Assembly (NCBI RefSeq): GCF_001602375.1
Contig: NZ_BCNY01000011.1
Location: 1-64,000 of the forward strand
DNA: 64,000 bases
Direction: 5' to 3'
DNA from: Methanoculleus horonobensis
GTDB lineage: Archaea; Halobacteriota; Methanomicrobia; Methanomicrobiales; Methanoculleaceae
In this document: positions 1 through 50,690 of the stretch, in pieces
Numbering within the stretch: the first letter of the stretch is position 1
How the letters are laid out: the number at the start of each line of letters is the position of its first letter
Notes under the pieces: model-generated
Seen by the model: the letters and a program-made list of their open reading frames with translations, nothing else
Told to the model about the DNA's origin: nothing
Databases searched by the model: none
Made by a program: the position numbers and the translations under genes

Positions 1-545
1 AGGAACAGAGCTCGAGCACCGCAAGGTGCGAGTGGCGACGTTCCGAAGGAACAGAGCTCGAGCACCGCAAGGTGCGAGTGGCGACGTTCCGAAGGAACAG
101 AGCTCGAGCACCGCAAGGTGCGAGTGGAGACGTTCCGAAGGAACAGAGCTCGAGCACCGCAAGGTGCGAGTGGAGACGTTCCGAAGGAACAGAGCTCGAG
201 CACCGCAAGGTGCGAGTGGAGACGTTCCGAAGGAACAGAGCTCGAGCACCGCAAGGTGCGAGTGGAGACGTTCCGAAGGAACAGAGCTCGAGCACCGCAA
301 GGTGCGAGTGGAGACGTTCCGAAGGAACAGAGCTCGAGCACCGCAAGGTGCGAGTGGAGACGTTCCGAAGGAACAGAGCTCGAGCACCGCAAGGTGCGAG
401 TGGAGACGTTCCGAAGGAACAGAGCTCGAGCACCGCAAGGTGCGAGTGGAGACGTTCCGAAGGAACAGAGCTCGAGCACCGCAAGGTGCGAGTGGCGACG
501 TTCCGAAGGAACGGAGCCGGAACACCTCAGGTGCGAGTGGCGACG
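1..545. repeat. 46-bp tandem repeat array (11 full units plus one degenerate), continuing beyond the window
   Basis: Units begin at 1, 47, 93 and so on every 46 bases to 461; a diverged twelfth unit starts at 507. Each unit holds two inverted repeats: GTTCC-GAA-GGAAC, and GCACC-GCAA-GGTGC, which has a GNRA-type loop and is flanked by CTC/GAG. Units 1, 2 and 11 read GTGGCGAC and units 3-10 read GTGGAGAC; otherwise they look identical, which suggests recent amplification. Because 46 is not a multiple of 3, the array is open in all three plus-strand frames, so the apparent Arg/Glu-rich proteins are artefacts. The array lies just 3' of the methyltransferase gene. Single copies of the same architecture occur near 38.15, 50.53 and 52.44 kb. 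Confidence 0.97.
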
Positions 546-568
546 GGCGCGAGCACCCCAAATCCGGG

Positions 569-1366
569 TCAGGGCTCCGGGTCTCTGACCGCCTCCACCT
601 CCAGGCGCACCATGGGGACGTGGATCCGGCCGTCGGCCGAGGGGAACCGCTCCACGTATCGGCTCACCACCTCTTCGATGAACGCCGGCCGGAGATCTTC
701 AGGCAGCGGCTTCAGGTAGAGGTGCCAGATGGTCCGAACCCACCCCGCAAGGCCGTCAGGGAGATCGAACGCCATGTCTTTCCCGATCAACTCGGCCCGC
801 AGGGGCGTGAGCCCTGCCGCTTCCAGCAGTTCACGCTCCTCCTCGGGGCCGTAGAAGGCGTAACTCGGGGCCAGGCCGGCGAAGAGTTTCCTCCACGGAT
901 CATCTGCGAGCATCTCGTTCGCGATCGCCATGATCGGCGCGGCGTTGCCTCTCCCGCCCATCTGGAGAAGGATCCTTCCCCCCGGCCGGAGAGCGTGAGC
1001 GATACCGGAAAAGACCCTGCCGTGGTCGGGAACCCAGTGCAGGGCGGCATTCGAGAAGACGACGTCGAACTCCTCATCGAACGGCAGGTCGAGCATGTCG
1101 CCCTCGATGAACCGGAGGTTCGGATACTGCTCTGAGGGGAAGCGTTCCCGGGCGAAGGCGATCATATCGCAGGAGAGATCGAGGCCGAGCGCCGAGCCGG
1201 AGGGGAGGCAGGCCGCGATCTCCGCGGTCACCTTCCCCTCGCCGCACCCGAGGTCGAGCACCCGCTCGTCGCCGGCAAGCGCGAGTTTTGCAATCAGTTC
1301 ATGCGCCCAGGCCTGCTGCGCGGCGGAGTGCTGCCCATAGTCCTTTGGATTCCACGCGTGCGTGAT
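569..1366 (-). CDS. class I SAM-dependent methyltransferase, trans-aconitate methyltransferase-like
   Basis: Rossmann-fold methyltransferase. Motif I reads LDLGCGEGKVT, followed by an acidic strand end (LGLDLS), a GDMLDLPF motif and the FDVVFSNAALHWV motif typical of the Tam/UbiE group that methylates small molecules; the substrate is unknown. The first ATG/GTG/TTG would start inside motif I and remove the helix before it. The frame stays open upstream with convincing sequence (THAWNPKDYGQHSAAQQAW), and a GGAGGG Shine-Dalgarno at 1373-1378 precedes an ATC codon by six bases. I therefore place the start at that ATC; either it is a rare non-AUG start or the ATG has been lost. The 3' end abuts the tandem repeat array. 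Confidence 0.8.
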   Translation of the reverse strand: MTHAWNPKDYGQHSAAQQAWAHELIAKLALAGDERVLDLGCGEGKVTAEIAACLPSGSALGLDLSCDMIAFARERFPSEQYPNLRFIEGDMLDLPFDEEFDVVFSNAALHWVPDHGRVFSGIAHALRPGGRILLQMGGRGNAAPIMAIANEMLADDPWRKLFAGLAPSYAFYGPEEERELLEAAGLTPLRAELIGKDMAFDLPDGLAGWVRTIWHLYLKPLPEDLRPAFIEEVVSRYVERFPSADGRIHVPMVRLEVEAVRDPEP

Positions 1367-1546
1367 GATACTCCCTCCGTGCGAGTTCCCCGCCGGAACA
1401 GCGGCCAGGCTCTCACAGATGAGAGGTATCGCCGCTACAAGGCATCAAGTTACCTGCAACGGGTCGTGACGGCAGGTGCTTGAGACATCCGGATTCTCAG
1501 CCGTCAGCGAAGCACCCCGGCCGGAGACTCCGTGCGGGGTTGATCG

Positions 1547-32128: not shown

Positions 32129-33307
32129 TCAGGACCCTTCCGTCCGGGTATCGAAGTCCTCGTTCAGGACGTGCTCTTTGACGATCGTCCCCTCCGGGAT
32201 GATCACCTCCGGCCAGAGCCGGGTTCCCGAGTGGACGACCACGCTGCCTTTTAAGACCGCACGCGGACCGATGACCGTGTCGTGCTCGATGTTGCACCCG
32301 CTCCCGATGAGCGTATCGTTGTCGATGATGCTCCCGCTGACGGTGCTGTCGCTCCCGATCAGCACCCGGTTGTAGATGGACGAGGAGAAGACCTTGGCGT
32401 TCTTCTTGAGGATGCAGCCCTCCCCGATGCTCGTGTACGGCCCGATGATGACGTTCTCCTCGATGATCGTTCCGGCGCCGATCGAGACCGGCCCGATCAC
32501 CCGGGAGTTCGCCGCGATCGAGACGCAGCTTCCTATCTGCGCCGGGCCGAGGATCCGGGCGCCCTTGATGTAGAGGTCGCCGGAGATGTTCGTGAACCCG
32601 ATATCCTGCAGTTTCCACCGTTCCGCTTCACGGAGCGACCGGGGGCTACCCACGTCCGACCAGTTGCCGCGGGCGAGCCAGGCCTTCAGGGCGTAGCCCT
32701 TCTCCATCAGTTCGGGGAAGAGGTTCCGGGCGAAGTCGAACTTCTCCCCGGTCGGGATATGGTCGAAGATCTCCGGGTTGCAGACGTACATCCCGGTGCT
32801 CGCGAGGTTCGAGAAGATCTCCCCGGGGCTCGGCTTCTCCTTGAACCGTTTGATCTGGTAGTCTGCATCGATCTCGGCGATCCCGTACTCCGTCGGGTCG
32901 TCGATACTGATGAGCCCGATCGTGGTGATCGAGTCGTTGTTGAGGTGCTCGCGGTAGAACTCGAGCAGGTTCAGGCCCACCACGTGGTCGCCGCCGACGA
33001 CCAGAAACGGCTGTTCTTCGAGGTATTTCTGGGCGTTCTTGACGCTCCCCGCCGTCCCGAGTTTCGTCTTCTCGTGGACGTAGGTGACGTTGACCCCGAA
33101 GAGCGACCCGTCCCCGAGGGCCTCCTCGATGGACTCGCTCATGTACCCGAGCGTGATCACCACGTCGGTGAACCCGAGGTTCGCGAGGTGTGAGACCAGG
33201 TGCTGGATCGAGGGTTTGTTGACGATTGGAATACACGGCTTAGGACGCCCGAACGTGAGGGGGCGGAGCCGTGTGCCCTCCCCTCCGCACATAATGCACA
33301 CCTTCAT
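32129..33307 (-). CDS. NDP-sugar nucleotidyltransferase with left-handed beta-helix tail (mannose/glucose-1-phosphate type)
   Basis: 392 residues. The N-terminal nucleotidyltransferase domain (about 1-235) starts KVCIMCGGEGTRLRPLTFGRPKPCIPI with the GGxGTRLxPLT signature and the activating Lys, and continues LVVGGDHVVGLNLLEFY. The C-terminal part is a hexapeptide-repeat beta-helix (IGSCVSIAANSRVIGPVSIGAGTIIEENVIIG). It makes an NDP-sugar for glycans or glycosylation; the base and sugar cannot be told. The ATG chosen begins the conserved strand; an in-frame extension upstream lacks similarity. Confidence 0.9.
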   Translation of the reverse strand: MKVCIMCGGEGTRLRPLTFGRPKPCIPIVNKPSIQHLVSHLANLGFTDVVITLGYMSESIEEALGDGSLFGVNVTYVHEKTKLGTAGSVKNAQKYLEEQPFLVVGGDHVVGLNLLEFYREHLNNDSITTIGLISIDDPTEYGIAEIDADYQIKRFKEKPSPGEIFSNLASTGMYVCNPEIFDHIPTGEKFDFARNLFPELMEKGYALKAWLARGNWSDVGSPRSLREAERWKLQDIGFTNISGDLYIKGARILGPAQIGSCVSIAANSRVIGPVSIGAGTIIEENVIIGPYTSIGEGCILKKNAKVFSSSIYNRVLIGSDSTVSGSIIDNDTLIGSGCNIEHDTVIGPRAVLKGSVVVHSGTRLWPEVIIPEGTIVKEHVLNEDFDTRTEGS

Positions 33308-36682: not shown

Positions 36683-38176
36683 ATGTCTCTCATCGTGCTC
36701 GGAACTGCATCCCACGTGGGCAAGAGTATGACCGTTGCGGCGCTCTGCCGTGCGCTCTACCGCCGCGGGATCCCGGTTGCGCCGTTCAAATCCCAGAACA
36801 TGAGTCTCAACTCCTACGTCACGGCCGACGGGAGCGAGATCGGGATCGCCCAGGCCGTCCAGGCCTTCGCGGCCGGGATCGAGCCGGAGGCCGAAATGAA
36901 CCCGATCCTCCTCAAACCCAAGGGGGATTCGGTCTCGCAGGTGGTTCTGCTCGGCCGCCCATATAAGGATGTGCAGATCCGGGACTATTACAGAGAGACC
37001 GATACGCTTCTTGCCGAGGCCGTCGCTGCGTTCGAACGGCTCCGGAACCGGTTCGGGAACGTGGTGATCGAAGGTGCCGGAGGAGCGGCGGAGGTGAACC
37101 TCTACGACCGCGACATCGCGAACATACGGCTCGCCCGCTCGCTCCGCCTCCCCATCGTCCTGGTCGCCGATATCGAGCGGGGCGGGGTCTTCGCCCAGGT
37201 ATACGGAACGCTCGCCCTCCTCCCGGAGGATGTCAGGCCCCTCGTCGTCGGGGTCATCGTCAACAAGTTCCGGGGAGACCCGGAACTCTTCGCCCCGGGC
37301 GTCGAGAAACTCGAGGAACTCACGGGCGTTCCGGTGCTCGGAGTGGTTCCTTTCGCCGATATCCCCCTCCCGAGCGAGGATTCGCTCTCGATCGCCGATA
37401 AAGGACAGAGGGCGGCCGCCTGCCCGGTCAGGATCGCCGTCCTCCGCCTACCGCGGATCTCAAACTTCACCGACTTCGAGCTCCTCGAAGAGCACGCCAC
37501 GGTGGACTACGTCCCGCCCGGCGGATCGCTCTCCGGTTACGACTGCATCATCCTCCCCGGGACGAAGAACACCGTCGAAGACCTCACCGTGCTGAATCGC
37601 CACGGTGTGGGGGAAGAACTCCGGCTCGCCCGCGAACGGGGCGTCCCGATCATCGGGATCTGCGGCGGCTACCAGATGCTCGGGAACCGGATCGTTGATT
37701 CCGGCATCGAGTCGGAGAACCCCGCGGATTACCCGGGGTTCGGGCTCCTGGACGTCGTCACCGCCTTTACCGGCTACCACAAGACGACGGTGCAGGTCCG
37801 GCGCCGGGCAACCGGCCCCGGCCCCATCCTCACCGCAATGGGGGTGGTGGAGGGCTACGAGATCCACATGGGCGAGACGGAGCATGGAGAACTGCCCGAG
37901 GCGTTCGCCGGCGAAGGGGCCGCAACCCCCGACGGCCTGGTCTTCGGGACATACATGCACGGCCTCTTCCAGAACCCCGGCGCCGTAAACGCCCTCCTCG
38001 CCCACCTCGCAGGGCGGCGGGGCGTGGCCTTCGAGCCGGTGGCGGAAGCCGGCGGAGGCGCCCTCGGGGCCGCGGCATCCTACGACGACCTGGCACGGCA
38101 CTTCGAGGAGCACGTGGATATGGAGGCTATTTTAGCGTACTTCACGGATGCGACGGTTCGCAGAACCGGAGCATGA
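36683..38176 (+). CDS. cobQ: cobyric acid synthase CobQ
   Basis: 497 residues. It amidates four side-chain carboxylates of adenosylcobyrinic acid diamide in B12 synthesis, using glutamine. N-terminal synthetase domain: [37 protein letters not shown] and [14 protein letters not shown]-terminal class I amidotransferase domain: [13 protein letters not shown] with nucleophile Cys327 and HGLFQNP with the catalytic His region. The last residues, RRTGA and the stop, are encoded inside a copy of the dispersed double-hairpin repeat. No other cob genes are in this window. Confidence 0.97.
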
Positions 38177-38202
38177 GAAAACGCGAAGCGTTTTCGAACG
38201 GC
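38145..38202 (+). repeat. dispersed double-hairpin repeat overlapping the cobQ 3' end
   Basis: It starts with GCGACG, then hairpin GGTTC-GCA-GAACC, linker GGAGC, then hairpin AAAACGC-GAA-GCGTTTT, and ends CGAACGGCGACGG. The order and linker match the 46-bp array unit at the start of the window. The cobQ stop (TGA) lies inside the linker. Confidence 0.75.
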
Positions 38203-38281
38203 GACGGATGGCACGTCCGGAGCTTGAGGGGAGTCCGTCTGGAGCCATACTATTATGGATTGCCGGCCCAGGTGATAGAAG

Positions 38282-50490: not shown

Positions 50491-50588
50491 TCGCCATTGG
50501 GGGTGGGGCCGACGGGGAGTGCGATGGTTCGTAGAACCGGAGCTCGACCACCGTCAGGTGGGAAGGGGGGTAACTCCCCCTCCCCTGT
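50491..50588 (+). repeat. composite dispersed repeat: GC-rich block split by a double-hairpin element
   Basis: TATCGCC...TTGGGGGTGGGG at 50491 resembles TATCGCC...TTGGGGGAGGG at 59932. Here the match is broken by a copy of the double-hairpin element: GCGATG, hairpin GGTTC-GTA-GAACC, linker GGAGC, hairpin CCACC-GTCA-GGTGG. The block then resumes with GGGGGG-TAACT-CCCCCTC, like GGAGGGGG-TGT-CCCCCTCC at 59960. The element looks inserted into the block. Confidence 0.55.
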
Positions 50589-50690
50589 CTCCACCTCATA
50601 CGAGGATAGTTGTAATCCCCACCCCTCCCGGCCTCCGGCCTCCTCATTCGCACCTACGGTGCTCATGCTCCGGCCCTACAGCCCGTCGTT

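Follow-up and report, generated by a model that had tools for sequence, protein, structure and literature searches.

A tandem array in Methanoculleus horonobensis as a probable local expansion of a REP-like DNA repeat dispersed between genes

The spread of bacterial REPs is thought to be driven by a Y1 transposase. REP/BIME sequences of the GTAG super-family with RAYT are short intergenic hairpins that reach high copy number between convergent or unidirectional genes, form dimers and clusters, carry compensatory stem variants and are gained and lost at the strain level (Di Nocera et al. 2013, PMC3733652). They are recognised by an unpaired GTAG tag and an associated Y1 (RAYT) gene. The CGTC REPs, which include Neisseria dRS3 and Rickettsia RPE-4/6, have no dedicated transposase, are described only in five bacterial phyla and occur mostly as head-to-head dimers (PMC3733652). 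Their stems of 8-9 bp start with A-T pairs, their loops measure 4-5 nucleotides, and they have a CCA tail.

Tandem arrays in Methanoculleus were not unknown before, as M. marisnigri is listed with 21 satellites and with families whose repeats measure 45 and 51 nt (Subirana and Messeguer 2019, PMC6749651). The entries of that list give the satellites by size only and describe no hairpins, dispersal, covariation or genus-wide family. In the literature searched, which lay mostly outside the subscription journals, no description of the module, its dispersal or its loop rule reported below was found beyond this list. A further point of comparison is the hyperstable DNA mini-hairpin d(GCGAAGC) (Hirao, Yoshizawa; cited in PMC4686876). 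DNA mini-hairpins whose GNA or GNNA loop is closed by two G-C pairs or more are extraordinarily stable and resist nucleases (PMC4686876). These are synthetic oligonucleotides, whereas the Methanoculleus module is a genomic repeat that resembles them in its loops and closing pairs.

Here we analyse a window of 64,000 nucleotides from M. horonobensis (genome G000), the left edge of which is the end of contig C11. The features at this end are as follows.

1..545, minus strand: tandem array of 46-bp units of two-hairpin modules, 11.9 copies (TRF; unit table; covariance-model matches on the minus strand)
40..52, no strand assigned: hairpin B of one unit, GTTCC-GAA-GGAAC, with a GNA loop on the plus strand (sequence; recurs each 46 bp)
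62..75, no strand assigned: hairpin A of one unit, GCACC-GCAA-GGTGC, with a GNNA loop on the plus strand (sequence; recurs each 46 bp)
500..545, minus strand: diverged edge unit adjoining the methyltransferase gene (unit table; covariance-model match 495-536)
569..1261, minus strand: class I SAM methyltransferase-like gene, the 3' end of which abuts the array (Pfam Methyltransf_25/11; ORF list)

TRF called one array in 1-545, with a period of 46, 11.9 copies and 98% matches. The sequence GTTCCGAAGGAAC is present 11 times at a spacing of exactly 46 bp, and the array consists of 11 perfectly spaced units and one partial unit. A preliminary description had reported a recently homogenised 46-bp array of near-identical units that runs off the left edge, 3' of a gene, and all of this stands. 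Its statement that only one base varies between units is true of the complete internal units, the sole difference being GCGAC or GAGAC arranged in blocks, but it left out the diverged edge unit. The open frames that run through the array in several frames are judged to be a by-product of the stop-free 46-bp unit. CRISPR was considered and rejected, since the units are near-identical throughout and there are no spacers; no gene lies between units, which argues against an integron attC array. The only other tandem repeat that TRF reported in the window is a 36-bp repeat at 32268-32338 (two copies, 82% matches).

Reading the flanking contig to count units, as the preliminary description had proposed, added about 3.2 units, all of the GCGAC type, at positions 1-156 of contig C7. 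Beyond them lie a short diverged module and then a gene containing MRIREKTLTILLVLSL. In several other Methanoculleus genomes this gene is the next one after the methyltransferase gene, from which a few hairpin modules separate it, and because the two genes adjoin in these relatives, C7 and C11 most likely meet inside the array. The array has at least 12 units, and some 15 provided that C7 and C11 share no part of it. The relatives retrieved with the methyltransferase protein are named Methanoculleus species; at the window locus several of them carry other modules and one (G063) an independent array of about 47 bp. That two contig ends fall in the array might suggest one or two units inflated by the assembler. 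However, the array has eleven units, an internal variant that comes in blocks and an edge unit that has diverged, and similar arrays lie inside G000 contigs and in the finished genome of M. marisnigri JR1, all of which makes such an artefact scarcely credible.

The array unit is one member of a dispersed family found across the genus by sequence searches. On the module strand, which is the minus strand in the window, a module reads TC, hairpin A, the linker TCNNNCTC, hairpin B and TCG. The arms of hairpin A are often GCACC/GGTGC or GAAGACC/GGTCTTC, and 25 different hairpin B stems were counted in G000; the linkers TCNNNCTC and TCG are conserved while the stems vary. Sites for a covariation test were picked by the GGTGC arm, the linker and spacing only, with the pairing of hairpin B not preselected. 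Hairpin B was 88.4% paired, against at most 60% when slid, and each of its 6 pairs shows changes on both sides, with a score of 0.619 versus 0.025-0.163 for the slid controls. Two-sided changes fill 85 cells and one-sided changes 10, many cells sharing ancestry and so not counting as independent events. G-U accounts for 11 of the 55 non-Watson-Crick cells, about the random-mismatch expectation and no enrichment. We infer that the excess of two-sided changes and the lack of G-U enrichment are better explained by DNA palindromes being exchanged or corrected wholesale than by an RNA evolving step by step.

The loops are constrained as well. A T..C loop on the module strand (GNA or GNNA on the opposite strand) is found in 100 of 138 distinct module hairpins with 3-4-base loops and in 5 of the 83 hairpins that served as background from elsewhere in the region; in 117 of the 138 the closing pair is C-G. 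Module loops are overwhelmingly GNA or GNNA within CC..GG on one strand. The preliminary description had spoken of a GNRA-type loop, which fits GCAA in the window, but the purine at loop position 3 that RNA GNRA loops require is not maintained across the module hairpins. The family rule matches the stable DNA mini-hairpins better, and the GAA and GCAA loops of the window fall in this hyperstable class.

With the array as query, BLAST found 24 places in G000, while a half-module pattern matched 97 times and its reversed control once. With a covariance model trained on 63 distinct modules, the same genome yielded at least 159 matches. Scans covered 199 genomes from the order and 232 from the class; the class-wide scan scored at most 27-32 candidates per genome and was used for presence or absence and rough richness only. 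The strong model signal is confined to Methanoculleus and to G104, which belongs to another genus of the same family; scattered matches only were found elsewhere. Some Methanoculleus are nearly free of modules. In some relatives the fragmentation of MAGs may account in part for low counts; better examples of low copy number are G004 (one contig, 5 matches) and G010. The fragmented assembly G132 has zero module matches and, with 19, the most Y1_Tnp matches among the Methanoculleus genomes.

The modules are intergenic. Convergent genes flank 23 of 52 distinct islands (background 18/94, p=0.002) and divergent genes 7 of 52 (background 31/94, p=0.01), with gene calls from a simple codon-usage script, approximate distances and contig C11 alone as the background. 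Avoidance of divergent promoters and preference for 3' flanks could be expected of an RNA element, in which hairpins in the 3' UTR stabilise or terminate the transcript of the upstream gene; the module strand is indeed the strand of the gene in the window, and RNA folding of three units beats shuffles (z -4.7 and -3.9). Yet the islands in unidirectional contexts show no sense bias (7 sense, 11 antisense, 4 mixed), and both orientations occur in 16 of 29 multi-module islands, so that the earlier suggestion of hairpins acting on RNA ends is unsupported across the family. The absence of G-U enrichment in hairpin B and a loop rule of GNNA instead of GNRA also speak against it, and a scan of window positions 1-1500 with Rfam yielded no family at threshold, only one chance match far under it. 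We regard the RNA element as quite improbable.

Like REPs in general, the family consists of many dispersed intergenic hairpins that are depleted at divergent promoters, and it resembles the bacterial REP/BIME sequences (PMC3733652) in its copy number, its position between convergent or unidirectional genes, its dimers and clusters, its compensatory stem variants and its strain-level gain and loss. It differs from the GTAG REPs (PMC3733652) in that it is archaeal, that no GTAG tag is seen (modules were recovered with TCNNNCTC and TCG as their termini and linkers) and that the genome has no Y1 transposase. Moreover, its module joins two different hairpins in a fixed head-to-tail order, with stems largely free and linkers fixed, and head-to-tail tandem arrays are common in it but rare or absent in most bacterial REP families (PMC3733652). 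The lack of a dedicated transposase is shared with the CGTC REPs, and many modules read CGTC at the end of hairpin B, although here the CG is part of the stem. The modules have GC-rich stems of 5-8 bp and loops of 3-4, and show neither an unpaired CGTC, nor 8-9 bp stems with A-T at positions 1-2, nor a CCA tail. The family works like bacterial REPs while falling outside the GTAG, RAYT and CGTC stem and tail definitions.

The general likeness to REPs (short intergenic hairpins, dimers, clusters) and the presence of Y1 transposases in some Methanoculleus genomes might point to non-autonomous elements mobilised in trans by a REP-associated tyrosine transposase (RAYT/Y1). However, Y1_Tnp (PF01797) has no match in G000 or in nearly all of the high-copy genomes; hits over threshold occur in 6 genomes, only one of which (G096) is module-rich, and the GTAG tag is missing. 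Mobilisation by a RAYT in trans is largely refuted and in our view highly improbable. A profile search of G000 for reverse transcriptase (PF00078) gave no match either, and both enzymes were ruled out as mobilisers in this genome.

Turnover of the modules was followed against G034 (one contig, 2,478,101 bases), which was treated as M. marisnigri JR1. C11 is syntenic with it at about 90% identity across 92 kb. An array of 5 x 86 bp and a seven-copy array of about 52 bp are present in JR1 only, the matching G000 sites being without modules. Two sites in the window differ as follows.

38131..38255, minus strand: inserted module sequence where a cobQ-like gene ends (3'), the site being about 111 bp longer than in G034 (empty-site comparison; model matches 38150-38186 and 38201-38238; CobQ domains)
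50521..50689, no strand assigned: island with two opposed modules (genome comparison; model matches)

The cobQ-like gene (window 36683-38176) ends in DATVRRTGA, its last codons altered by the inserted module, and JR1 is without the insertion. At the site near 50.6 kb, JR1 has three tandem units for a single unit in G000; the linkers are shared, and the hairpin B that they enclose differs. The synteny ends at G000:C11 92375 and G034 1945000+93940. About 0.3 kb further on, at C11:92.69 kb, lies an intergenic island that contains degenerate remnants of modules, a hint of rearrangement near repeats.

Arrays have also grown elsewhere. G000 contains at least 10 tandem arrays of differing sequence, with the following periods.

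46 bp: the window; C15:383.5k (8.6 copies, 100% matches); C4:45.4k (7.2 copies)
45 bp: C7, C14 and C15
Other periods in G000: 87, 94, 58 and 39 bp

In most arrays the growth unit is a whole module or a pair of modules. The finished JR1 genome has a 45-bp array of 9.2 copies with 100% matches, which fits by size alone the 45-nt repeat in the satellite list (PMC6749651; families there: Fam_48_45_4, Fam_102_51_3).

Several unrelated arrays have a 45/46-bp period in common, and modules keep TCNNNCTC and TCG while their stems vary, as might be expected if the modules were protein-binding sites for chromosome organisation, with the constant linkers as recognition sequence and the arrays as platforms. 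BIMEs in E. coli are bound by gyrase or IHF. A pattern of constant size and variable sequence in Bacillus repeats has been interpreted as protein binding (PMC8161180). Against this, sites are gained and lost between genomes that are about 90% identical, periods of 39, 58 and 86-94 also occur, and G004 manages with hardly any modules. We think such a role rather unlikely and, to our knowledge, there is no known binding protein for the module. Linker conservation could also reflect selection for protein binding, which would make the module more than neutral DNA.

The sequences show that modules are widely dispersed, that their stems covary and their loops are constrained, that sites have been gained and lost and that arrays have grown independently. 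We consider it very probable that the array at the contig end arose where a REP-like DNA repeat, dispersed between the genes of Methanoculleus, was multiplied locally in tandem. The loop statistics and the lack of G-U enrichment suggest that what is maintained in the module is a structure of the DNA. When its strand turns single-stranded, CC-GNA-GG and CC-GNNA-GG hairpins would fold. Polymerase slippage, or unequal recombination between identical linkers and stems, could then duplicate whole modules (45, 46, 58, 86-94 bp), and hairpins may be swapped between modules via the shared linkers. Reaching new sites 3' of genes would need an enzyme or a template-switching route. The module is probably neutral or selfish and has perhaps secondary effects on flanking transcripts. 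A more speculative possibility is a selfish archaeal DNA that spreads as ssDNA hairpins with DNA-hyperstable GNA/GNNA loops, would be recognised via linkers that stay constant as its stems change freely, and might be moved by a non-Y1 enzyme.

If the expansion of a REP-like repeat is the correct reading, archaea would gain a REP-like family that is well defined and has a clear structural grammar. The family is a place to ask what spreads such repeats without a RAYT, the same question that the CGTC REPs pose in bacteria. Arrays come and go between close species, which opens their mechanism of expansion to testing. Draft assemblies break at the repeats, which might be useful for strain typing. 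They seem to limit the G000 assembly, because six of its contig ends fall inside modules or no more than about 700 bp away from them (C7:1, C8:1, C11:1, C13:1, C14:1 and C15:888735).

Some modules are nested within larger composite islands, which have cores of about 100-360 bp and TIR-like bounds, GTGGACCGTGGGGA|TATCGCC and GGCGATA|TCCNNTGGAAANCCGTG (for example L015:1354-1711, L076:1889-2127 and L090:2104-2308). Compared with MITEs, which have terminal inverted repeats and target-site duplications, the family shows TIR-like ends on these larger islands only, and no target-site duplication was recognised by eye. The end pattern has 37 hits in G000 and is present in 33 of 35 Methanoculleus genomes; a strict pattern recovered few whole composite islands and a looser one nine. 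At L077:2150-2215, adjoining a 39-bp array, an 8-bp tandem repeat (CGGAGGTG x 8) has grown from a hairpin A arm.
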